Of a DNA stretch of 64,000 bases, positions 5,160 to 62,957 are shown piece after piece (position 1 is the stretch's first letter; every line of letters begins with the position of its first letter). The position numbers and the translations under genes are program-made. Source of the stretch: Ethanoligenens harbinense YUAN-3 (GTDB lineage: Bacteria; Bacillota; Clostridia; Oscillospirales; Ethanoligenentaceae); contig NC_014828.1 of assembly GCF_000178115.2 (NCBI RefSeq), positions 1,767,310 through 1,831,309 on the forward strand, written 5' to 3'. Below the pieces are notes generated by a model, which ran no database searches, was not told where the DNA came from, and worked only from the letters and a program-made list of their open reading frames with translations.

Positions 5160-6955
5160 TCGTCCAGCTTGAGCACGGACATGAACGCTTCCTGCGGCAC
5201 CTCTACCGAGCCGAGCTGGCGCATGCGTTTTTTGCCCTCTTTCTGCTTCTCAAGCAGTTTCTTTTTGCGGGTGATGTCGCCACCGTAACACTTAGCCAGC
5301 ACGTCCTTGCGCATGGCCTTGACCGTTTCGCGTGCGATGATACGCCCGCCCACCGCCGCCTGAATGGGCACCTCAAACAACTGGCGCGGGATGACGTCCT
5401 TGAGCTTTTCCGCGATGCGCCGCCCGCGTGCATAGGCCTTGTCGGCGTGCACGATGAACGACAGCGCATCCACCACCTCGCCGTTGAGCATGATGTCGAG
5501 CTTGACCAGCCTGGAGGGCGCGTAGCCTTTCACTTCATAGTCAAAGGAAGCAAAGCCGCGCGTGCGGGATTTGAGTGCGTCAAAGAAATCATAGACGATC
5601 TCATTGAGCGGCAGTTCGTAATGCAAATCGGCGCGGGTGGCGTCGAGGTATTTGGTGTCTTTATACACGCCGCGGCGCTCCTGACAGAGCTCCATGATGC
5701 TGCCGATATAATCGGTGGGGGTGAGGATGTGCGCCGTAATCATCGGCTCCTCCGCCTGCGCGATCACGTCCGGCGACGGAAAGTTGGTGGGGTTGTCGAT
5801 GAACACCGTTTCGCCGTTTGTCTTGATGATCTTGTAGACCACGCTGGGCGCGGTGGTGACCAGATCGAGATTATATTCGCGCTCCAGCCGCTCCTGAATG
5901 ACCTCCATGTGCAGCAGCCCCAGAAACCCGCAGCGGAAACCGAACCCCAGCGCGATGGACGTTTCCGGCTCGAACGAGAGCGAAGCATCGTTGAGCTGGA
6001 GTTTGGCCAGCGCGTCGCGCAGGTCGCCGTATTTCGCGCCGTCGGCAGGATAGACGCCGCAGTAGACCATTGGGTTGACCTTTTTGTATCCAGGCAGCGG
6101 CTCTTTCACACCGTTTTCCACGGTGGTAACGGTGTCGCCCACGCGGGTGTCCGCCACGTTTTTGATGCTGGCGGTGAGGTAGCCGACCTCGCCCGCGCAC
6201 AGGGCCTCGGCGGGCTGCAAACAGGTGGGTAGCATATAGCCCACCTCCACCACGTCGAACTCCGCGCCGGTGGCCATCATCCTGATGCGGCTGCCGGGCT
6301 TCACGGTGCCGTCCATCACCCGCATGTAAACGATGACGCCCTTGTAACTGTCGTAATAGGAATCGAAGATAAGCGCGGAGAGCGGCTTTTCCGGGTCGCC
6401 CTGCGGCGCAGGGACAGCGGCGATGATCTTGTCCAGTACGTCCTGAATGTTCAGGCCCGTCTTAGCGGAAATGCAGGGCGCGTCATCCGCCGGGATGCCG
6501 ATGACATCCTCGATCTCGGCTTTCACACGGTCGGGGTCGGCGGAGGGCAGATCGATCTTGTTGATGACCGGCACCACCTCAAGCCCGTGATCCACCGCCA
6601 GATAGGTATTGGCCAGCGTCTGCGCCTCGATGCCCTGCGACGCGTCCACCACCAGGATGGCGCCCTCGCAGGCCGCCAGAGAGCGGGACACCTCGTAGTT
6701 GAAGTCCACATGGCCGGGCGTGTCGATGAGATTGAGCTCATACGCCTGCCCGTCGGTATGCGTATAGCTGAGCTTGACGGCGCGCGCCTTGATGGTGATG
6801 CCCCGCTCGCGCTCAAGGTCCATGTTGTCGAGCAACTGGGCCTCCATGTCACGCGCGGAAACGGCGCTGGTCTTTTCCATCAGGCGGTCGGCCAACGTCG
6901 ATTTGCCGTGGTCGATATGGGCGATGATGCAGAAATTGCGGATATTCTCTTGCAA
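5156..6955 (-). CDS. lepA: elongation factor 4 (LepA)
   Basis: Ribosome-dependent translational GTPase. G motifs are clear: [18 protein letters not shown] and NKID; the C-terminal LepA-specific domain follows. I start at TTG 6955 (MQENIRNFC...), since GAGGTGA ends 5 nt upstream and the resulting 599 residues match the family. The longer ATG at 6994 has no ribosome binding site. It is the first gene of lepA-hemW, with hemW overlapping by 4 nt. Confidence 0.96.
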
Positions 6956-34674: not shown

Positions 34675-34760
34675 GCCGGTGTGATGGAATGGTAGACGTA
34701 GTGGACTCAAAATCCACCGCTGGCAACAGCGTGCCGGTTCGAGTCCGGCCACCGGCACCA
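34675..34760 (+). tRNA. tRNA-Leu (anticodon CAA)
   Basis: 86 nt with encoded CCA. Acceptor stem GCCGGTG/CACCGGC, anticodon stem GTGGA/TCCAC with loop CTCAAAA (anticodon CAA at positions 3-5), a long variable arm CGCTGGCAACAGCG as expected for class II tRNA-Leu, and TTCGAGTCC T-loop. It marks the left border of the accessory region. Confidence 0.96.
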
Positions 34761-34763
34761 AGT

Positions 34764-34810
34764 TAAAAGCTACATTTATTGTGTTTTTGTACAATGAATG
34801 TAGCTTTTTT
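34764..34810 (+). terminator. terminator of tRNA-Leu
   Basis: AAAAGCTACATT pairs with AATGTAGCTTTT, extended by ATTGT/ACAAT, followed by T-rich sequence. Confidence 0.85.
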
Positions 34811-34874
34811 ATGTATGAAAATAGACTGATACAGATGCCGTTTCTTACCTTATATGACAGAAAGGATGTTCACA

Positions 34875-35774
34875 ATGAGATATGAAGTATTTGAAATTCC
34901 GGCTAAAGCAAAGGCGCCCTTGAGGGTGGCAGCTTATTGCCGGGTTAGTACACCGTCCGAAGAACAGCAGAACAGTCTGGAAACGCAGGTACAATATTAC
35001 GCCGAGACCATCTCAGGCCATATCGGTTGGACTCTCGCCGGTATCTACGCTGAACAAACCTCAGGCACACGATTCGATACCAGAGAAGCGTTCAATCGCA
35101 TGATAATGGATTGCCGCAAGGGCAAAATCGACTACATCATTACGAAATCAGTCAGCCGCTTCGGTCGAAATACGCTACCGTTCATGCAGGGAATCGAAGA
35201 GTTGCTTCAGCGGGGCATCCCTGTCCACTTTGAGTTGGAGGGGTTGAACTCATCCGACTGGCGCATGAAAAAAATCATCACGGCTGCGGCCGCCGTTGCT
35301 CAGAGAGAAAGCGAGTCAAAAAGCGCGGACATCAAATGGGGTATCCGGCACAGTTTTCAAGAAGGGCATGTTAAGCTCAACTACAGTCAGTTTCTCGGTT
35401 ACACAAAGGATGCAAATGGGAAGCTGGTCGTAGTGGAGGGTGAGGCAGAGGTTGTCCGGCTAATCTATGACCTATATTTGAAAGGATATGGCTGCCGTAA
35501 AATCAAGACGCACCTCGAGACAAACGGTATCAAAACGGCAACAGGCAAAATCGTTTGGAGCACCTCAACAATAGACCGCATCCTCTCCAATGAAAAATAT
35601 ATTGGGACCGTATTGTCGCAGAAAACTTTTGTGGAAAACTGCCTGACGCATAAGCAAATGCAAAACACGGGGCAATTTTCTAAATATGTGATCGAAGGTA
35701 ACCACGAGGCGATCATCAGTAAAGAAGTTTTTGAGGAGGTGCAACAAAGAAAACAGGGCGTTCCAGTCAGATAA
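34875..35774 (+). pseudogene. large serine recombinase, C-terminally truncated
   Basis: 299 residues from ATG 34875 (AAAGG 9 nt upstream). Resolvase domain with the catalytic Ser in AAYCRVSTPSEEQQNS (near residue 24) and Arg residues in SVSRFGRNT; then the recombinase domain (SQFLGYTKDANGKLVV, NEKYIGT) and part of the zinc-ribbon region. Members are usually about 500-550 residues; the coiled-coil and C-terminal DNA-binding part are missing and an IS3 remnant lies just beyond. It is probably the decayed integrase of an element next to the tRNA. Confidence 0.8.
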
Positions 35775-36467: not shown

Positions 36468-36496
36468 TTGAGATTTTCTGTACAATGTTCTATAAT
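36468..36496 (+). promoter_or_regulatory. promoter of RexAB-like pair
   Basis: TTGAGA (36468-36473), 17-nt spacer, perfect TATAAT (36491-36496), 27 nt before the ATG. Confidence 0.8.
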
Positions 36497-36523
36497 AAAG
36501 TAAATATAGGGGGAGGGTATGAT

Positions 36524-37470
36524 ATGTCAACAAAAAATGTATATTTTTACAAGGTATCCCTTTTTGAAAGCAATCCAAACGTAGAGCATCCTATCGACCA
36601 ATTAAAGGCTCTCTTTGATGAAATTTTCAATGCGAATGTACGTAACAGCGCCATTGCTCTGTCCCACGACGACATAGAGCCAATAATAATGGACATAATA
36701 AACATAATAGTGAGTATTTATTTGCTAGACTTTCAAAAAAACGCCCTAACAATACATTACAAAAAAGAGATTATGGTACCCTTGCAATAGATGACGTCCT
36801 CGCAGCGGATGAAGTCAGTAAAAAGGGAATCGAATTGTTTACTTATTGCATTTTGGGATATAAACATGGGGTATTATCCATTGCCAACTCAAAGGGCGCA
36901 CCTAAAGAAACCTCATTAAATAGACTGTTTCAGCTATACAACAACCATTATTATTTGAACGCAGATCCAGTACCTAACAGTGACTTAATTAAAGAACTCT
37001 ATGAGTCTGATTCGTCTATACTAAATCGAATATGTGTTGAAATACCTACACCCGACGCAACTGTATTAGAGCAAGCCCTTAAAATGACAGATTCTGAACT
37101 AATCGATGCCGTAAGCAAAAACACACAATCAGTTATATTTGAGGTAAAACCGCAATATCGCAGTGATTTGACTAAAGATCCAGATCTTGTAAAGCGTTTA
37201 ATTGATGCCTTCCGGAAAAGTAAAGACAGTTTTTCGAAAGTCATACTTCATGGGAAAACCGAACATCGTGGGAAGCAAGTTGGATATGATTTGTTCGAAG
37301 AATATTTTAAATATCCAATTGAAATAACAGAATACCATCAAGAATACAACCGGAAAGTCGAATATCCAAAAGAAAAAATCCAAGCGGACTATAGAGGAAA
37401 TATGATGGATATATATAATGAATTTAAGAATATCATTTTGGCATTTTGTGATAGAGCGCCAACAGAATAA
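36524..37470 (+). pseudogene. RexA-like cytoplasmic protein, interrupted by a frameshift
   Basis: Starts MSTKNVYFYKVSLFES behind GGGGGAGGG. The first frame ends at 36790, but another frame carries on the protein from around 36700 (NSEYLFARLSKKRPNNT ... YCILGYKHGVLSIANSKGAP) to 37470, giving about 315 residues once one base is added or removed near 36690-36715. I recognise no named family with certainty. The order of motifs (a FxFxxxGxxxGxA-like strand, an LxxA..M..ExI..V.KNTQSVIFEVKP segment, a polar C-terminus) and the following 4-helix membrane gene recall lambda RexA/RexB. Function as phage exclusion is inference. Confidence 0.6.
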
Positions 37471-37502
37471 TTCATACATAAAAATGAAAAGGAGGGGTGG
37501 CA

Positions 37503-38042
37503 ATGAAAAAGCGATTGATAATCCCACCGGTAATTATCTCCATGATCGTAACTTGTTTTTTTTATTTGGTAAACCCCCCCTTCCTTTCTTGTGCAAACCA
37601 ATCCGGATTTCACTTTAATATGGTAACCATTAATTCTATATTTGCTGGATTTTTATACACCAATTACTCTTTGCTGCTGGGTTTATTAGATAATGACACT
37701 GTTCAAAAATTGTTGGGAACCTCTGTTATTCGGCGAAGAAACGATCGCATATTTGCAGGCATTGTATGTGCAGTTATCTCAATAATCACTGGAGTAATTC
37801 TTGCAATTGTTACTGCTGGGAACACAACAAATAGCGTTTCTAAAGCTGTAAATATTTCTGGAAATTGGATTTTGACCTTTCTTTGGGCAGCAGAGTGTGT
37901 ATTTATGGTTTTTGGGATATTTTATTTTACAATATCAATCAGGGAAATGCATATGCTTGTTAATGCTGCTGGACAGCCCAAGAAGAAAGTGAAGCAAGAT
38001 GTAATCGACGACGTAAAGAAAGTAGTAAAAAGAGAAAAATAG
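37503..38042 (+). CDS. four-helix membrane protein, RexB-like in layout
   Basis: 179 residues. ATG 37503 follows AAAGGAGGGG. Helices at about 6-24 (IIPPVIISMIVTCFFYLV), 44-62, 80-103 (FAGIVCAVISIITGVILAIV) and 116-136, with a Lys-rich cytoplasmic tail (KKKVKQDVIDDVKKVVKREK). Size and topology match lambda RexB, an ion-channel-like exclusion protein, though I see no certain sequence identity. It lies 32 nt after the RexA-like gene and shares its promoter. Confidence 0.6.
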   Translation: MKKRLIIPPVIISMIVTCFFYLVNPPFLSCANQSGFHFNMVTINSIFAGFLYTNYSLLLGLLDNDTVQKLLGTSVIRRRNDRIFAGIVCAVISIITGVILAIVTAGNTTNSVSKAVNISGNWILTFLWAAECVFMVFGIFYFTISIREMHMLVNAAGQPKKKVKQDVIDDVKKVVKREK

Positions 38043-38057
38043 CGAGCGGTTTTCATT

Positions 38058-39047
38058 TTATAGCAGTACATTTTTTACAAGAAGGGATATCGTTCCATCA
38101 GGATTATTAATAAACTCTATAGCATCACCATCTTGATATAACGCTACAGGAATTTTGATTTCAATTCCATCGGAAGTTTTTACCGACTGCTTTTCAAGTC
38201 GTTTAATTGTAGCTTTTGATACTTTTATAGTATCTGTATTTTTAATGCTTTTATCTTTAAGAGTGTCTTCTAACGACTGCGCTATTTGGGGATATTGATA
38301 GTATATTTCCTGACACAATTCATTTATATCCACTTCATTATTATTAATAATTTGCTTATTTATTTTTGATGTAATTTCACGTTCCATATTGCCCTTATCA
38401 TTTGGAATTTCTTTACTGATTTTTATCACTGCTTTTTTTAGTGCAGTGAATTTTTCTCTTTCAGATACATTGGACTGACAATCTAGTATATATGTGGATA
38501 AATAAAAATCTTTGACTCCATCTATTTCATATTTTTTTTCAGATAGCAATATTTCATGCGTGGAACAATTAACAGTAAATGCTTCTTCTATCCTACTTGC
38601 AGGGCTGGGTAGAAGGGTCTGCTGTGGAATTATGGACAAAGCTTGCTGAGAATTGACTTTTTGATAATGATGTATATAACCATCACGATAATTCATTTTC
38701 AATACGGAAAAATATGTGTCATTTGTTTGATCATTCCATAATATACAAACTAAATCTGCATGAGGTATCAATGGGTTACGGAGCATAATCTTAAAATACT
38801 CCGTAGCAATATACTGGGTCTTTGCAACGAATTGATCTGACAAACCGTCTAACACTTTCAAGAATTGTGAATGTTCCCTAAAAATGCATTTCTTGGAAGC
38901 ATCATCGTCTATGCACTTTTGGATGTGATTTTTTAGATAATCACATATATTATAATTCTCAATGGCCAAGCAGTTATCCGATAAAACAGGCATAGTAATG
39001 TTTGTATCTAATACGTGCAAAATAGCCGAGCTGATAGTTATATCCAT
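38058..39047 (-). CDS. nucleoid-associated protein, NdpA/YejK-like
   Basis: 329 residues, convergent with the RexB-like gene (15 nt apart). The N-terminus SSAILHVLDTNITMPVLSDN, the internal LIPHADLVCILWND and YFSVLKMNYRDGYIHHYQ match the 37-kDa nucleoid-associated protein family (PF04245). The C-terminal region (about 205-329) is predicted helical and basic. Such genes are frequent on mobile elements. AT-rich codons differ from the core genes. The cellular role is not established. Confidence 0.65.
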   Translation of the reverse strand: MDITISSAILHVLDTNITMPVLSDNCLAIENYNICDYLKNHIQKCIDDDASKKCIFREHSQFLKVLDGLSDQFVAKTQYIATEYFKIMLRNPLIPHADLVCILWNDQTNDTYFSVLKMNYRDGYIHHYQKVNSQQALSIIPQQTLLPSPASRIEEAFTVNCSTHEILLSEKKYEIDGVKDFYLSTYILDCQSNVSEREKFTALKKAVIKISKEIPNDKGNMEREITSKINKQIINNNEVDINELCQEIYYQYPQIAQSLEDTLKDKSIKNTDTIKVSKATIKRLEKQSVKTSDGIEIKIPVALYQDGDAIEFINNPDGTISLLVKNVLL

Positions 39048-44751: not shown

Positions 44752-44844
44752 TCTTTTAGACGAAGAAAAGAAAAAATGCCGTGAAACCCGGCGAATCTTA
44801 TGTTATAATATTTTATTAGTATGGTGCGGTTTGGAGGCTGGCTT

Positions 44845-45570
44845 ATGAATATCAGAGATTACATCGACGCTGATTTGCTGGAACGATTTGAATTTTATAA
44901 CTACAACCATGCGCTGGAGATTATCACGCAGGCTTTTCCCAAAGAATGGAAAGAGATCGTTGAGTGCCTGCGTAAGCTTGATATTACAACGGACGATCTG
45001 CGCGAGTCCGGCGGCAATGAGACGAATATCCCAAAGAAATTTGATGACGTCCTTTACCCATATGGGTGGCGAGAAATTCGTATTTCAGGGGATTTGCATA
45101 TCAAGTTTTTTCCTCGGCAGGCCGATCAGCGCGGGCGCTTTTCAAAAGAGCCGTTTGAGGAAAAAGTGTTGGAAGGATATATCGACGGCCACAATATCGA
45201 CTTTTTAAAAAACAGAGTGGCCTTTGATTTAGAATGGAACAGTAAAGACCAGACTTTTGACCGTGATCTGCTAGCGATGCGCACCTACTACGATTGCGAT
45301 ATTGTAAGCGCTGGCATTATTATCACGCGGGCGGAGGAATTGAACGACGCTTTCAAAACTATTTACGATTTTGATAAGCGTGATCGTACATGGAAACCCA
45401 TTCTAAGGAAGTATGGCGCAAGCACCACATGGATTGGTAAACTACTGTACCGTCTGGATTCAAGGCGAAATGGCGGCTGTCCGATTTTGGCCGTAGGCAT
45501 GAAGAAACGGTGCATTTCGGATTGGGAGGAAGGATATATAGATGAGCACAGCAAAGGAAACAGCGAATAA
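44845..45570 (+). CDS. BglII-family type II restriction endonuclease (putative)
   Basis: 241 residues from ATG 44845 (GGAGG 7 nt upstream). N-terminal helices (YNYNHALEIITQAFPKEW) and the core HNIDFLKNRVAFDLEWNSKDQTFDRDL (positions about 116-142, with D128, E130 and N132) resemble the BglII/BstYI PD-(D/E)XK variant. It overlaps the methyltransferase by 29 nt, which supports a restriction role. The target site cannot be told from sequence. Confidence 0.75.
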   Translation: MNIRDYIDADLLERFEFYNYNHALEIITQAFPKEWKEIVECLRKLDITTDDLRESGGNETNIPKKFDDVLYPYGWREIRISGDLHIKFFPRQADQRGRFSKEPFEEKVLEGYIDGHNIDFLKNRVAFDLEWNSKDQTFDRDLLAMRTYYDCDIVSAGIIITRAEELNDAFKTIYDFDKRDRTWKPILRKYGASTTWIGKLLYRLDSRRNGGCPILAVGMKKRCISDWEEGYIDEHSKGNSE

Positions 45571-46210
45571 TCTCCTGCAGTTTTGCGGGGAAAAAAAATA
45601 CGCCACGGTTTACGCAGATCCCCCTTGGCGCTTTCAAAATCGCACCGGCAAGGTAGCCCCGGAAAACAAAAAGCTGAATCGTTATCCAACAATGGATTTG
45701 GAAGATATTAAGGCTCTGCCCGTTGGAAAAATTGCGGCAGAGAAAAGCCATCTTTATCTTTGGGTTCCAAACGCGCTTCTCCCTGATGGACTGGAAGTTA
45801 TGAAGGCATGGGGCTTTGAATATAAGGGGAACATTATCTGGGAGAAAGTGCGTAAAGACGGAGAGCCGGACGGACGAGGCGTAGGATTTTATTTTCGTAA
45901 TGTCACTGAAATATTGCTGTTCGGCATCCGTGGCGGCAACAATCGAACTTTGGCTCCGGCTCGTTCACAGGTAAACTTGATTCGCACCCAAAAACGTGAG
46001 CATTCGAGAAAGCCGGATGAAATCATTACGATTATTGAAAGTTGCTCTCCTGGCCCATATTTGGAACTGTTTGCGCGCGGAGATCGTGAGAATTGGGATA
46101 TGTGGGGCAATCAGGCAACCGCTGAATATGAGCCTACATGGAATACTTATAAAAACCATACCACTAAGGAAACTACATCGGGCGTATCTGGCTCTCAGTC
46201 GGAAACTTAA
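45542..46210 (+). CDS. MT-A70 family DNA adenine methyltransferase
   Basis: 222 residues. DPPWRF near residue 27 is the catalytic DPPW motif for N6-adenine methylation; LYLWVPNALLPDGLEVMKAWGFEYKGNI and ELFARGDRENWDMWGNQ complete the MT-A70 pattern. GGAAGG lies 9 nt before the ATG, inside the nuclease gene. It should protect host DNA at the nuclease's site; both are on AT-rich, horizontally acquired sequence. Confidence 0.88.
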   Translation: MSTAKETANNLLQFCGEKKYATVYADPPWRFQNRTGKVAPENKKLNRYPTMDLEDIKALPVGKIAAEKSHLYLWVPNALLPDGLEVMKAWGFEYKGNIIWEKVRKDGEPDGRGVGFYFRNVTEILLFGIRGGNNRTLAPARSQVNLIRTQKREHSRKPDEIITIIESCSPGPYLELFARGDRENWDMWGNQATAEYEPTWNTYKNHTTKETTSGVSGSQSET

Positions 46211-57314: not shown

Positions 57315-60300
57315 ATGAAAAAGAGGACGAAGAAAAAGTGGGCAGCGGCGGCAGTCGCGGCAGGGCTATGCATTGCACAGTTGCTGTCGTCGGCTTCTGT
57401 GTACGCCTTAGGTGCGATCGATATTCAGTCATCCGTATTCAAATCCGTAATTGATGAAGCAAAAACGACTATTTCACCCGGAGTCGGCCAAAAAACATTT
57501 ACATACGTAGACAAAGGCGACGGCAACCGGGTCGCCTGCTATGAGACGGATGTGGATCTGTCTGGGAAAAACGCCTCTCTGGTCGTCGGCATGCCCAACG
57601 ACGGGACGACTTTTGCCATGCAGTCCGTGCGTGACCAGGCGTCCGCCGCGATCAAAAACGGTAAAAATGTGGTAGCCGCCGTCAACGGCGATTTTTATAA
57701 CATGGCCACTGGCGAACCGAACAGCCTCATTATCAAAGACGGTGTGGAACTGCACGCCACCAACAATTCCGGCGGTTTCTTCGGTATTAAAAAAGACGGC
57801 ACCGCCGTCATCGGCGATGTCGCTACCTATAATCAAATCAAGGACGACCTGCAAGAGGCCATGAGCAGCAACACCTTGCTGGTGCAAAACGGCAAAATTG
57901 TGGGCAGCAGCACGGATCTGGAACCGCGCACAGCCGTCGGCATCCGTGCAGACGGCAGTGTGTTTTTCATCGTGATCGACGGCCGTCAAAGCCCCTATTC
58001 GGAGGGCATTACGCTGACCAATCTCGCCAAACTGATGTTGGACGACGGTGCGGTGCAGGCCGCCAATCTGGATGGCGGCGGTTCCTCCACATTTGCGACC
58101 AAAACGCCCGGCGACGACAGTCTGACGGTGAAGAATTCACCGTCAGACAATGATGAACGCCCGGTGGCGAACTCCTGGTTCATCGTTTCCAATGTTCAGC
58201 CGGATCACCAGTTTGCAAGCGCATATATCACCCAGCGCGACATGACTTACACACCCGGCACGACGGTGAACTTTACCGCGAAGGGTGTCGATAAAGACGG
58301 CTATTCCGCCACTCTGCCAGCCAACGGATTGACTTGGAGCCTTACGGATGCGTCGTACGGCTCCATTGATGCGGCTACCGGCGTTTTTCAGTCAAACGGC
58401 AAGACCGGCCAGGTGGGCATACAGCTTTCTTATAACGGTACGGTGGCCGACACGGCATACATAGAACTTGAACTGCCGGATACGTTTTCGTCCCCGCAGA
58501 CCAGCGTGATTGTTCAGCCGGGCGACACCAACTCGCTTGGTCTTACGGCGACGTATCAGGGCCGCACCGTGCACTTTTCCGCGTCGGATGTGACGTGGAC
58601 CATTCCGAACAATCTGGGCACGGTTAACGGCGATAACGCGTTTGTTGCAGGTTCCGCCACAGGAAGTGGCGATGTTACCATCGCGTTTAACCACACGAAT
58701 CTTTCCGTTACTCTCCATGTCCAGGTTGGGCAAGACCCGGTCGTGGTCGAGGACTGCGAAGAGTTGACGGATGACGCTACCGCACAGTCGCTTTGGACCT
58801 CCACGCCCGGTAAACGCGGCGAAAAAATCAGCGTGGGTGCCAGCAGCTATCCTGATTCGCCTGTGCGGTTTGGCAACCACGCCGCGCGGGTGGATTTTGA
58901 TTTCACCGGTGCGCAGTCCCAGACGACCCTGATTGCTTATGCCGGACCAAAAACCGTAACGAAAAGTGCGTCGGGCTCGCCAACAAGCATCGGCGTTTGG
59001 GTTTACGGTACGCCGGAAACGCAGGGTATGTGTCTCTGGTTTGGCCTTGTGGACGGAAATGGAAAAAATTTCGGCGTTTATATGCCGCCAGAGGCCGGTG
59101 AGCCGAGCATCGCAAATCTGGGGCAAATCTATTGGGAAGGCTGGAAATATGTCAGTTGCCCCATTAACACAACGCTGCATCCCGGTCCCTACACGCAACA
59201 GGGCGGCGGATATGCCGCCGGTATTATCTCGTTGCATTCCGGCATGGCGGGTGGCGGCCCGATGACCAAGGGCAGCATCTACTTTGATAACTTCCGTTTT
59301 GTCTATGGAACAGCCAACGATGACTTGACCGCGCCGGTTATCGACTCAGTGAATGTGGACGGCAAAACATACAACACGTCCTCCGTCAGCATTACGACGG
59401 CCATTCACGACGTGGTCGAGGCAAATGAGAGCGGCATCAACTGGGATCGCAACCGCATCTGGGTGGACGGCGTGGAGTATACCAATGTCGCCGGCCATTA
59501 CTCGTACGACAAAGACGGCACGTTCACCCTTTCCGGCTACAAATGGGCGGATGGCGTGCACCATGTGCATCTGTCCATCCAGGACAATTTCGGCAACGAG
59601 ACGGACAAGGACGCCTACTTTACCGTAAACACCGGCAACGGCACCGGCGTCTCGCTGGCGCCGCTGGGCGCGAGCGCACCGCTGGGCGGCACCTACTCCT
59701 TAGCGCTGAACGCGGACGACCTGTCCAACGTCACGGGCGCAACGGCCACCGTCAACATCGGCACCGGTTTCCCGGTCACGGGCGTGGATTTTGCCGCCAG
59801 CGCCGCCGGCAGCACGTATCAGTATGACGCCTCCACCGGCAACGTGACGCTCAATCTCACAAACACCGGCGCGGCCAAAGGCGCGGGCACGCTGGCAACC
59901 ATCCATGTGTCGGTGCCGGCCGGCACCGCGCAGGGAACGTCGATTTCCTACGGCATCACCGGTGGCACCGCGACCTATGCCGCCGCGCAGGGCGACAGCT
60001 TCAACGGTACCTTTGCCAGCACGTCCGGTACCGTTCCGGTTTCCGCCGGGCTGACCGTCTCGGTCGGGCAGATGGTTGTGGGCGCGAACGGGCAGATTTC
60101 CGTCACGACGGCGGACGGTAAGCCCGCCACGGGCGCGGACGTGTCTTTCACGCCCGCCGGCGGCTCCGCAGAGGACCTCGGCGTTACCGACGCAAACGGC
60201 AATTTGTCCAACGCCGCACCCACTCAGCAAGCACAGAAATTCACGCTTTCCGCGCAGCTTGGCGCAGCGTACAGCTTCCAGACGGCGGGGCAGTCGTTCA

Positions 60301-62957
60301 ACCCGCAGAAGAGCGCCGCGCCCGCCAACCTGCTGGCCGGTTCCACACAGGACCCGACCACCGAAAAAACATTCACCTGGATGACCAACCCGCTGCAAGG
60401 CAACGATCAGGCAATCATGCAGGTGGCCAAACAGGATGATTACACCAAAAACGGAGATAGCGCCTTTACCAATTACACCGGTACCCGGCAGCTCATCACT
60501 TACTCCGCTGACAGCAGCGCCATCAAGCTCAGCTCGGTCACGGCAACCGGCCTGACCCCCGGTACGACCTATGCCTACCGCGTGGGCGACGGCGCCAACT
60601 GGTCCGATGTGCGCAGCTTCACCACGCTGACGCCGGACGACTCGAATCTCACCTTCAACGTATTCGGCGACACGCAGGTGACGGACGCCAGCGGCCTGAA
60701 CGATTACAGCCAGTTCCTCACCGATATTGAAACCGCGGCGACCAAATCCGACTTTGCCATCCATGTAGGCGATTTCACCGACGACCAGACCATTTTCAAT
60801 GAGATGGATATCACCGCCAATATGCTCAGCGCACACTCAATCTTTGATTCTATCGACACCATCCACGTAATGGGCAACCACGAGCTTCAGGGCGACGACG
60901 GCACGAAGTCCGCCGCCATCCTCGGCATGCCTAATACAAACGGACCGGCGTGCGATAAAGCGGGCACCTACTCGGTCGACTACGGCAACATGCACATCGC
61001 CGTGCTGGGCTGGACGGACAGCGTGGATGTGATGAACCAGAAACTGAACTGGCTGCGGCAGGACATGAAAGCTACCCAAAAGACCTGGAAAATCATCGCG
61101 CTGCACCAGCCTGCTTTCAACAAAAACCCGGCGGACAGCGCGACCTTAATCTACGACACGCTGCCGCAGGTATGCGACGAGCTGGGCGTGGACCTTGTGT
61201 TCAACGGCCATGATCACTCCTACGGCCGCACCTATCCCATCTATAACAAAACGCCTGTGACCACCAATCCCACCAACTGCAACAACGGCACCGTCTACAT
61301 CGCCGCCGGCCACACCGGAGACAAAACGTACGACATCGACCCGGTCTATCCCAACGCTTTCGTCACCTATCAACAGGAGGCCAACAAGGACGATAAGGTC
61401 TACCTCACCTGCACGGTGAACAACAACAAGATGCACATTGCCGTGAAGGATTCCGAAAACGGCCTGACGACCGACGACGTGACGCTGACCGCCCATCAGG
61501 CGGACAAGACCGCGCTGCAGTCGGCCATCACCGGTGCGCAGGCGCTGCACGACGCGGCCGTGGCCGGCAACCACGAGGGCAACTATCCGCAGAGCGCTAT
61601 TGGTGCGCTTCAAACCGCGCTGGATGCCGCGAACGCGGTGAACAGCGACGTCAACGCCACGCCGGAGGGCGTGGCCGCGGCTGTGACCGCGCTGAACACG
61701 GCAACGGCCGCATTCCAGAGCGCGGTCGTGACCGTAAACCGCACGCAGTTGAACGCGCTGGCGGCCAGCGCCGCAAAGCTCGACACCACGAAATACACGC
61801 CTGACAGTTGGAAACCGTTTGGCGCCGCGCTGAGCGCCGCGCAGACGTTGCTGGCCGGCCACCCCAGCCAGAGCGAGATCGACGACGCGTTCACCGCGCT
61901 GTTGACGGCCGAAAACGGGCTGGTGTTTGCGGCGGACAAATCCGCGCTGCAGCAGCTGGTCGACGCATCGAAGAACACGGATACGTCGGACGACAAGCCC
62001 GCGCGCGTGCAGGCCCTAACCGATGCGCTGACCGCCGCGCAAAAGGTGCTGGACGACCCAGACGCCACGCAGGCCGATGCGGACAGCGCGTTCACGACCC
62101 TGCTGCAGGCGCTGACCAACCTGCAGGAGATCGCGGACCGCACCGACCTTAATGCCCTGATTGCTACCGTGCAGGCGTTCGACGGCGGCAAATACACCAA
62201 AGCAAGCTGGCAGGCGCTTCAAACGGCGCTGACCGCCGCCCAGGCGGCCACCGCCAACTTGGACAACGATGCGTCTGATATCCAGACCGCCTACAACAAT
62301 CTGTCGGCCGCGGCGACCGCGCTGGTTCCTATCGCCAACAAGGCCTCGCTGAACAACTCCATCGCGCTGGCAAGCCAGATCCTTGCCGACGCGGACAGTT
62401 ACGCACCCGCCACGTTGAGCGGCCTTTCCGACCTCGTGGCGCAAGCCAAGGCCGTGCAGGCGCAGGATGACGCCACACAGGACGCGGTGAACAGCACGGA
62501 CAGCGCGCTGATTGGCGCACTCGCCAAGGTGCGTGTCAAAGCGAATAAGACCGAGTTGACCACGCTGGTAAACACGGCGTCAAATCTGACGCTGGCCCAA
62601 TATACCGCGGCGAGCGCAGAAAAGCTCCGGCAGGCGTTGACGGCGGCCGAAGCGGCGCTTGCGGATGAAAATGTCACGCAGGACGCGGTCAATACGCTGA
62701 CGGCCAATCTGCAAAGCGCGGTGAACGGCCTGGTGCTCACCGCGACCGGGTATGCGACGGCATCGTCTGCTGCCTCATCCGCTTCTGGCACAACTTCGGC
62801 CGCTTCTTCCGCCGCCTCATCCTCCGGCTCGAACGCGGCCAGCCCGAAAACGGGCGCCGCGCAGGCGGCTGCGCTGCCGGCCGTCGCGGCAGGTCTCGCG
62901 GGCGTATGCGGCATCGTCATCGTGCTGTTCCGCCGTCGGAAAAGGGGAAACCGGTAA
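57315..62957 (+). CDS. wall-anchored phosphodiester glycosidase / metallophosphatase with FIVAR repeats
   Basis: 1880 residues. Signal peptide (1-32); NAGPA-type phosphodiester glycosidase domain (about 60-295: VVAAVNGDFYN, QNGKIVGSS, ANLDGGGSST); two Ig/Big-like segments (300-475); a carbohydrate-binding-like jelly roll (480-670); an Ig-like and a cohesin/dockerin-neighbour-like beta region (675-995); an FN3-like lead (1000-1105); a calcineurin-type phosphatase (1113-1390: FGDTQ, GDFTDD, GNHE, LHQP, NGHDHSYGRT); about six FIVAR-type helical repeats (1395-1815); Ser/Ala linker; SPKTG (1843-1847), helix and RRRKR tail. Ribosome site is weak. It probably trims phosphorylated glycans outside the cell. 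Confidence 0.9.
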   Translation: MKKRTKKKWAAAAVAAGLCIAQLLSSASVYALGAIDIQSSVFKSVIDEAKTTISPGVGQKTFTYVDKGDGNRVACYETDVDLSGKNASLVVGMPNDGTTFAMQSVRDQASAAIKNGKNVVAAVNGDFYNMATGEPNSLIIKDGVELHATNNSGGFFGIKKDGTAVIGDVATYNQIKDDLQEAMSSNTLLVQNGKIVGSSTDLEPRTAVGIRADGSVFFIVIDGRQSPYSEGITLTNLAKLMLDDGAVQAANLDGGGSSTFATKTPGDDSLTVKNSPSDNDERPVANSWFIVSNVQPDHQFASAYITQRDMTYTPGTTVNFTAKGVDKDGYSATLPANGLTWSLTDASYGSIDAATGVFQSNGKTGQVGIQLSYNGTVADTAYIELELPDTFSSPQTSVIVQPGDTNSLGLTATYQGRTVHFSASDVTWTIPNNLGTVNGDNAFVAGSATGSGDVTIAFNHTNLSVTLHVQVGQDPVVVEDCEELTDDATAQSLWTSTPGKRGEKISVGASSYPDSPVRFGNHAARVDFDFTGAQSQTTLIAYAGPKTVTKSASGSPTSIGVWVYGTPETQGMCLWFGLVDGNGKNFGVYMPPEAGEPSIANLGQIYWEGWKYVSCPINTTLHPGPYTQQGGGYAAGIISLHSGMAGGGPMTKGSIYFDNFRFVYGTANDDLTAPVIDSVNVDGKTYNTSSVSITTAIHDVVEANESGINWDRNRIWVDGVEYTNVAGHYSYDKDGTFTLSGYKWADGVHHVHLSIQDNFGNETDKDAYFTVNTGNGTGVSLAPLGASAPLGGTYSLALNADDLSNVTGATATVNIGTGFPVTGVDFAASAAGSTYQYDASTGNVTLNLTNTGAAKGAGTLATIHVSVPAGTAQGTSISYGITGGTATYAAAQGDSFNGTFASTSGTVPVSAGLTVSVGQMVVGANGQISVTTADGKPATGADVSFTPAGGSAEDLGVTDANGNLSNAAPTQQAQKFTLSAQLGAAYSFQTAGQSFNPQKSAAPANLLAGSTQDPTTEKTFTWMTNPLQGNDQAIMQVAKQDDYTKNGDSAFTNYTGTRQLITYSADSSAIKLSSVTATGLTPGTTYAYRVGDGANWSDVRSFTTLTPDDSNLTFNVFGDTQVTDASGLNDYSQFLTDIETAATKSDFAIHVGDFTDDQTIFNEMDITANMLSAHSIFDSIDTIHVMGNHELQGDDGTKSAAILGMPNTNGPACDKAGTYSVDYGNMHIAVLGWTDSVDVMNQKLNWLRQDMKATQKTWKIIALHQPAFNKNPADSATLIYDTLPQVCDELGVDLVFNGHDHSYGRTYPIYNKTPVTTNPTNCNNGTVYIAAGHTGDKTYDIDPVYPNAFVTYQQEANKDDKVYLTCTVNNNKMHIAVKDSENGLTTDDVTLTAHQADKTALQSAITGAQALHDAAVAGNHEGNYPQSAIGALQTALDAANAVNSDVNATPEGVAAAVTALNTATAAFQSAVVTVNRTQLNALAASAAKLDTTKYTPDSWKPFGAALSAAQTLLAGHPSQSEIDDAFTALLTAENGLVFAADKSALQQLVDASKNTDTSDDKPARVQALTDALTAAQKVLDDPDATQADADSAFTTLLQALTNLQEIADRTDLNALIATVQAFDGGKYTKASWQALQTALTAAQAATANLDNDASDIQTAYNNLSAAATALVPIANKASLNNSIALASQILADADSYAPATLSGLSDLVAQAKAVQAQDDATQDAVNSTDSALIGALAKVRVKANKTELTTLVNTASNLTLAQYTAASAEKLRQALTAAEAALADENVTQDAVNTLTANLQSAVNGLVLTATGYATASSAASSASGTTSAASSAASSSGSNAASPKTGAAQAAALPAVAAGLAGVCGIVIVLFRRRKRGNR

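Follow-up and report, generated by a model that had tools for sequence, protein, structure and literature searches.

The gene pair and its features

The stretch studied here (hereafter the window) comprises 64,000 nucleotides of the genome of Ethanoligenens harbinense YUAN-3, and within it we have concentrated on two consecutive genes, A and B, that resemble in layout the rexAB exclusion genes of phage lambda. Gene A corresponds to a single protein of ca. 315 residues divided between two reading frames (36524-37470, + strand), and it is followed by gene B, an intact frame coding for a predicted membrane protein. The features of this unit, in window coordinates, are the following:

36468..36496, + strand: promoter-like site TTGAGA-17-TATAAT, 11 of 12 consensus positions (a consensus match only)
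36509..36517, + strand: ribosome-binding site of gene A, purine-rich, preceding the ATG (read from sequence)
36524..36790, + strand: first frame of gene A (RexA-like putative sensor), ATG at 36524, stop at 36788-36790, family homology until ca. 36.70 kb
36646..37470, + strand: second frame of gene A, stop at 37468-37470, family homology from ca. 36.70 kb to the stop
37490..37497, + strand: ribosome-binding site of gene B, purine-rich, preceding the ATG (read from sequence)
37503..38042, + strand: gene B (RexB-like, predicted four-helix membrane protein), intact, 179 amino acids (aa) from the ATG at 37503

Sites of this promoter class are not enriched in the window (4 seen against 7.6 expected from shuffles), and for gene B an alternative start, GTG at 37497, would give 181 aa. 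The two frames of gene A overlap between 36646 and 36790. Against a family profile built from relatives, with the window excluded, the N-terminal half of gene A matched model positions 1-68 (6.6e-12) and the C-terminal half positions 68-314 (5e-49). As both halves fit consecutive parts of one profile they make up a single protein, the homology switching frame at ca. 36.70 kb. Window B, open throughout 37503-38042, matched its own window-free profile at 5e-33. All this agrees with a preliminary description of the stretch, which had read here a protein of about 315 residues with its frames joined near 36700, a second protein of 179 residues, and an intact promoter, ribosome sites and second gene.

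Conservation of the pair in Clostridia and Bacilli

Relatives were found at 30 loci, with 24 distinct A sequences, and at every one of them A lies directly upstream of B (spacing from -20 to +80 bp); each of the 21 loci retrieved through B alone also carries A upstream. The lambda-like layout pointed out in the preliminary description is repeated across the family. The relatives come from Clostridia and Bacilli, from their prophages as well as their genomes, many of them at ca. 20-30% identity, and the named hosts are Oceanirhabdus, Paenisporosarcina, Oceanobacillus, Planomicrobium, Virgibacillus, Clostridium and Clostridioides. Nearly half of the loci (14 of 30, on 13 contigs) belong to viral contigs of IMG/VR. 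The E. harbinense genome itself (one contig, 3,008,576 bases) carries a single copy of the pair.

The C-terminal half of A found five others among 391 genomes of the class, four of them true A genes (L002, L003, L004, L006), each followed by a gene for a small membrane protein, and the A profile added L008 and the remote L009 from 398 genomes of the phylum. Scans with B gave 11 viral-contig loci among 44 candidate stretches and 10 genome loci among 60, and scans with A added L022 (one of 62 stretches) and L023-L024 (two of 306). Two candidates were rejected, L005, whose 88-aa match (expectation value, E, 1e-4) crosses six stops, and L010 (E 6.5e-4); both genes read as penicillin-binding-like. 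L010 had entered an iterated profile and was excluded from the later alignments A9 and A10. Collections of 50,697 phage and 72,556 plasmid records gave no match to A, though viral contigs hold relatives, and the B profile found only G396 among the 46 genomes of the class to which G396 belongs. Neither A nor B had a match of useful level in Pfam, NCBIfam or PHROGs, sequence searches of the PDB with both families gave nothing useful, and residues 1-59 of A matched PD-Lambda-5_A of PADLOC only weakly (E 0.011 over 40 residues). Pairwise distances of A and B are correlated (r 0.91, reached in 0 of 2000 permutations; L028, near-identical to L030, was omitted), a correlation that shared ancestry alone could produce.

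Gene A resembles RexA in predicted fold and in profile

The comparison with RexA suggested in the preliminary description was carried out on an intact relative, L026 of Paenisporosarcina sp. OV554, whose structure was predicted from 21 alignment rows (predicted local distance difference test, pLDDT, 84.3; predicted template modelling score, pTM, 0.75). Searched with Foldseek against solved structures, this model found lambda RexA (8twq) first, with E 1.0e-8 and 3.8e-7 for the two chains and a probability of 1.00, followed by RdgC (E 6.5e-4), and no further protein reached 0.001. VIA-align also placed RexA first (Z 11.3 over 240 residues, root-mean-square deviation, rmsd, 17.1), ahead of RdgC (Z 7.0), CENP-N (Z 7.0, 118 residues) and Iml3-Chl4 (Z 5.3), with unrelated proteins from 4.7 downwards. 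RdgC, IML3 and CHL4 are named as the structural relatives of RexA in PMC11077077. CENP-N and Iml3-Chl4 are kin of the relatives listed there, and the fold of A, as modelled, is that of RexA and RdgC.

Profile comparison points in the same direction. Against four RexA sequences the A profile scored 44.1 in local mode (E 1.4e-5, probability 80%) and 45.3 in global mode (E 2e-8, probability 94%), the latter end to end over 262 columns, while the best of 60 column-shuffled controls reached 21.0 and 9.4, respectively. Comparison of single A sequences is weaker evidence, as only the Salmonella protein (E 0.0016) among the four RexA exceeded 600 shuffled sequences. DNA binding by RexA needs R219 and K221 (PMC11077077), and the column aligned to K221 holds K or R in 16 of the 21 A rows, the window among them. 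The similarity to RexA, which the preliminary description had called only suggestive, is for A now a relationship tested by predicted structure and by profile match.

Gene B and the known systems

B is predicted to be a membrane protein with four transmembrane (TM) helices, as the preliminary description had held. In the predicted structure of window B (pLDDT 77) there are four long helices, 7-30 (with one short break), 34-61, 74-106 and 120-157, and two shorter ones, 64-71 and 165-178. A hydropathy scan gave four segments in all 20 B relatives, spaced like those of lambda RexB, although in window B only three exceed the threshold. Position and four-helix architecture of B match RexB, but sequence homology to it is unproven.

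The pair shares with lambda RexA-RexB (8TWQ; PF15969, PF15968) the gene order, the sizes, the predicted RexA/RdgC fold and significant profile match of A, and a four-helix membrane partner of similar spacing. It differs in being missed by the Pfam models, in the length of A (ca. 300-348 aa against 279), in its Bacillota hosts, in the unproven kinship of B and RexB, and in that the window pair does not lie beside a cI gene. RexABpp of Pseudomonas putida (PP_5643-5644) is also a prophage pair with a cytoplasmic A and a four-TM B; its A was identified by RexA homology and fold, and its membrane partner lacked RexB homology by HHpred (PMC12894663). The likeness to RexABpp is one of description, and its function has been demonstrated, whereas for our pair we infer it. 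The pairs CarolAnn gp44/gp43 and Sbash gp30/gp31 are alike in layout and sizes, but profile similarity of either to A or B is not detectable. The RexB-like Sbash gp31 has 165 residues, and a fold search of BFVD with window B returned a 165-aa Sbash protein at rank 12, a weak match (probability 0.41, E 0.9).

Among the models of PADLOC, the candidate system PDC-M67 (PDC-M67A, PDC-M67B), for which our literature search found no paper, also consists of two genes, with an A model of 328 positions. PDC-M67B is matched by four of 21 B proteins (best 1.5e-8), window B not being one of them, while none of 21 A proteins matches any PADLOC model, PDC-M67A included, at E 0.01. Neither PDC-M67A in 378 genomes of the phylum nor PF15969 in 381 genomes of the class was seen; the controls also gave no match, so that absence is not proved. 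For Kiwa (four-TM KwaA plus KwaB) there was no PADLOC match, and it is not among the fold matches listed, which excludes nothing. As to RdgC of E. coli, it is a single housekeeping gene with no membrane partner.

Genomic setting

The pair is located in a stretch of low GC content (0.32-0.48 over 34-39 kb, against 0.53-0.59 over 30-34 kb), for which the following features are of interest:

34675-34760: tRNA-Leu, followed by the low-GC stretch
38058..39047, - strand: gene of NA37 (37-kDa nucleoid-associated protein; PF04245, 1.8e-32), convergent with A-B, a possible associate
44821-46210: BglII-type restriction endonuclease overlapping an MT-A70 methyltransferase (PF09195, 2.9e-41; PF05063, 5.4e-30), in the same island

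The tRNA-Leu is followed by a serine recombinase of 306 aa that looks C-terminally short (together 34675-35774), and no attachment-site repeat of the tRNA was found. Transposase genes in the island read as insertion sequence (IS) types IS3, IS66 and IS21. A homologue of NA37 (31% identity) heads a co-directional NA37-A-B arrangement in L008 (2412-3425), L015 (2459-3472) and L022. That the three genes generally form one system was rejected, as among the loci searched NA37 adjoins the pair only in the window and in the L008/L015/L022 sequence. In L009 (1-2803) the pair lies between a defence gene with an ApeA domain (PF18862, 5.3e-58) and a gene that reads as a YgjP-type-peptidase-like one. Among 101 neighbouring proteins, drawn at 22 loci from as many as two genes to one side of the pair and four to the opposite side, the recurrent families were helix-turn-helix (HTH) repressor domains, serine recombinases, IrrE-like peptidases, HNH, terminase and portal, as would be expected for prophages.

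Elsewhere in the window, 57315-62957 encodes a protein of 1,880 residues with NAGPA, purple acid phosphatase N-terminal, metallophosphatase and five FIVAR domains.

A probable exclusion pair and its alternatives

We believe that A-B is probably a RexAB-type superinfection-exclusion (abortive infection) pair that forms a branch carried by prophages of Bacillota. On the model of lambda, CarolAnn, Sbash and P. putida, from which we infer the sensing, the triggering and the membrane leak, A would be a soluble protein that recognises the infecting phage by way of DNA or of a phage protein and triggers B, a four-helix protein of the inner membrane. B would then open as a channel or pore and damage the membrane, so that growth is halted before phage release. 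The defence neighbourhood, that is, the ApeA gene in L009 and the BglII-like restriction pair in the island of the window, is in keeping with such a role.

Several observations weigh against it. The superposition of the whole L026 model on RexA is poor (TM-score 0.36-0.40, rmsd 17-18 A), which we attribute to the closed form of the RexA crystal, modelling having suggested an open form (PMC11077077). The modelled protein is moreover not the one of the window, to whose C-terminal half L026 has only 17% identity in the alignment. The A profile has no detectable similarity to the RexA of actinophages, and neither has lambda RexA. Nor does Pfam RexA (PF15969) or RexB (PF15968) match the window pair. 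These models, which score the lambda proteins at 1e-97 and 8.5e-92, also miss four A and four B relatives, A and B of L009, L026 A and L020 B, as well as CarolAnn gp44 and Sbash gp31. For B and RexB the similarity does not rise above chance, the global profile score (8.7) being under the best of 60 shuffles (9.15), and here the caution of the preliminary description still applies. Lambda RexB came first only by a hair over nine real membrane-protein controls; there had been 11, of which L040 (itself a B) and L039 9465-10019 (a CarolAnn gp43) were not true controls. To our knowledge no exclusion phenotype has been described for the Bacillota branch. Finally, DNA binding has been argued not to be the main determinant of exclusion by RexA (PMC11077077).

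There are two other functions that could be proposed for such a pair. One would be a regulator of the lysis-lysogeny decision, in which A, as lambda RexA does, would tilt the prophage switch through its binding to DNA, an effect modulated by B, with exclusion secondary or absent. HTH repressor-type domains are indeed the commonest neighbour families (HTH_3 in 6 of the 101 proteins). However, no repressor gene was seen beside the window pair, copies keep company with a restriction pair in an IS-rich island or with an adjoining defence gene, and the B that accompanies A in 30 of 30 loci would be superfluous for a regulator that only binds DNA, all of which makes this role improbable. Even less probable is that A acts as an RdgC-like protein of recombination or replication, with B as a small holin-like or anchor protein, in phage DNA metabolism rather than in exclusion. 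RdgC comes second among the structural matches of A, and some copies are near packaging genes or, in L002 and by reading, a single-strand binding protein; RexA nevertheless outscores RdgC clearly in both Foldseek and VIA, and a strict A-B order with a four-helix protein is the layout of RexAB. The preliminary description had named a match to an unrelated family, or homologues never side by side, as outcomes that would speak against a RexAB-like unit. What we found is a match of A to RexA and adjacency throughout the loci.

The frameshift in gene A

The search for unshifted homologues proposed at the outset was productive, as gene A is one open frame in 23 of the 24 distinct relatives. The exception is L033 (Clostridium cadaveris, 5821-6180), whose gene A likewise carries a frameshift close to its start, the first two dozen residues or so being in a different frame from the remainder and the shift having the opposite direction to that of the window. 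Frameshifts near the start thus affect two of 25 distinct A sequences (the window and L033), and B is open in both. The most likely situation is that in E. harbinense gene A is broken and the pair silent, with an intact B that has lost its trigger and would stay mute.

The preliminary description had considered the shift to be recent, programmed or an error. A programmed -1 shift, which would yield A as a fusion protein and leave the pair active, could make use of a slippery heptamer, A AAA AAC, at 36736-36742, which lies within the overlap and has the right direction. The heptamer is nonetheless just past the real join, ca. 35 bases beyond the frame switch in homology, and a fusion made there would lose a conserved Y-L-F-x-R strand. 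The RNA that follows folds ordinarily (z -1.28), chance alone would, by our estimate, place ca. 0.4 such heptamers in this stretch, and neither the unshifted relatives nor the opposite shift of L033 fits a programmed event, which we hold to be extremely improbable. Mutation and error are what is left of the three. A sequencing or assembly error in a resident gene that is in fact intact would account for a single change in an otherwise open gene whose promoter, ribosome sites and partner are preserved. This seems to us rather unlikely, although it is the strongest of the alternatives considered here. The genome is a single contig, 100% complete, the join is away from the A7 and A6 runs of the overlap, and the island looks decayed (transposase remnants and the 306-aa recombinase).

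In P. putida the two genes could not be cloned together, and overexpression of RexA selected for loss of the prophage or for rexB mutants (PMC12894663). Pairs of the RexAB type can therefore be costly, and selection may be behind the frameshifts in A.

Significance of a proposed Bacillota branch

RexAB, one of the earliest abortive-infection systems to be reported, still has no known trigger, and no more than five RexAB-like systems had been counted by January 2026 (PMC12894663). DefenseFinder detected RexAB only in Proteobacteria, with limited detection given as a possible cause, and took its models for the group of systems that includes RexAB from Pfam or COG (PMC9090908). Our literature search, by title or the start of the abstract and with most subscription journals outside it, found no paper on a RexAB-type system in Bacillota. 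The RexAB-like branch of Bacillota, missed by the existing Rex models, is probably a new branch of a known system. It fits the suspicion of limited detection and offers a ready explanation for the finding in Proteobacteria only. One could go further and propose that RexAB is old and widespread in prophages of Bacillota, its restriction to Proteobacteria being an artefact of detection, that frameshifts at the start of the sensor are a recurrent, selected off-switch for a costly effector that is kept intact, and that NA37 is a third component in some loci; as a whole we give this broader picture little probability. In any case, the approximately two dozen distinct pairs would make alignments deep enough to model the contact between A and B and to test in Bacillus the step from sensor to channel.
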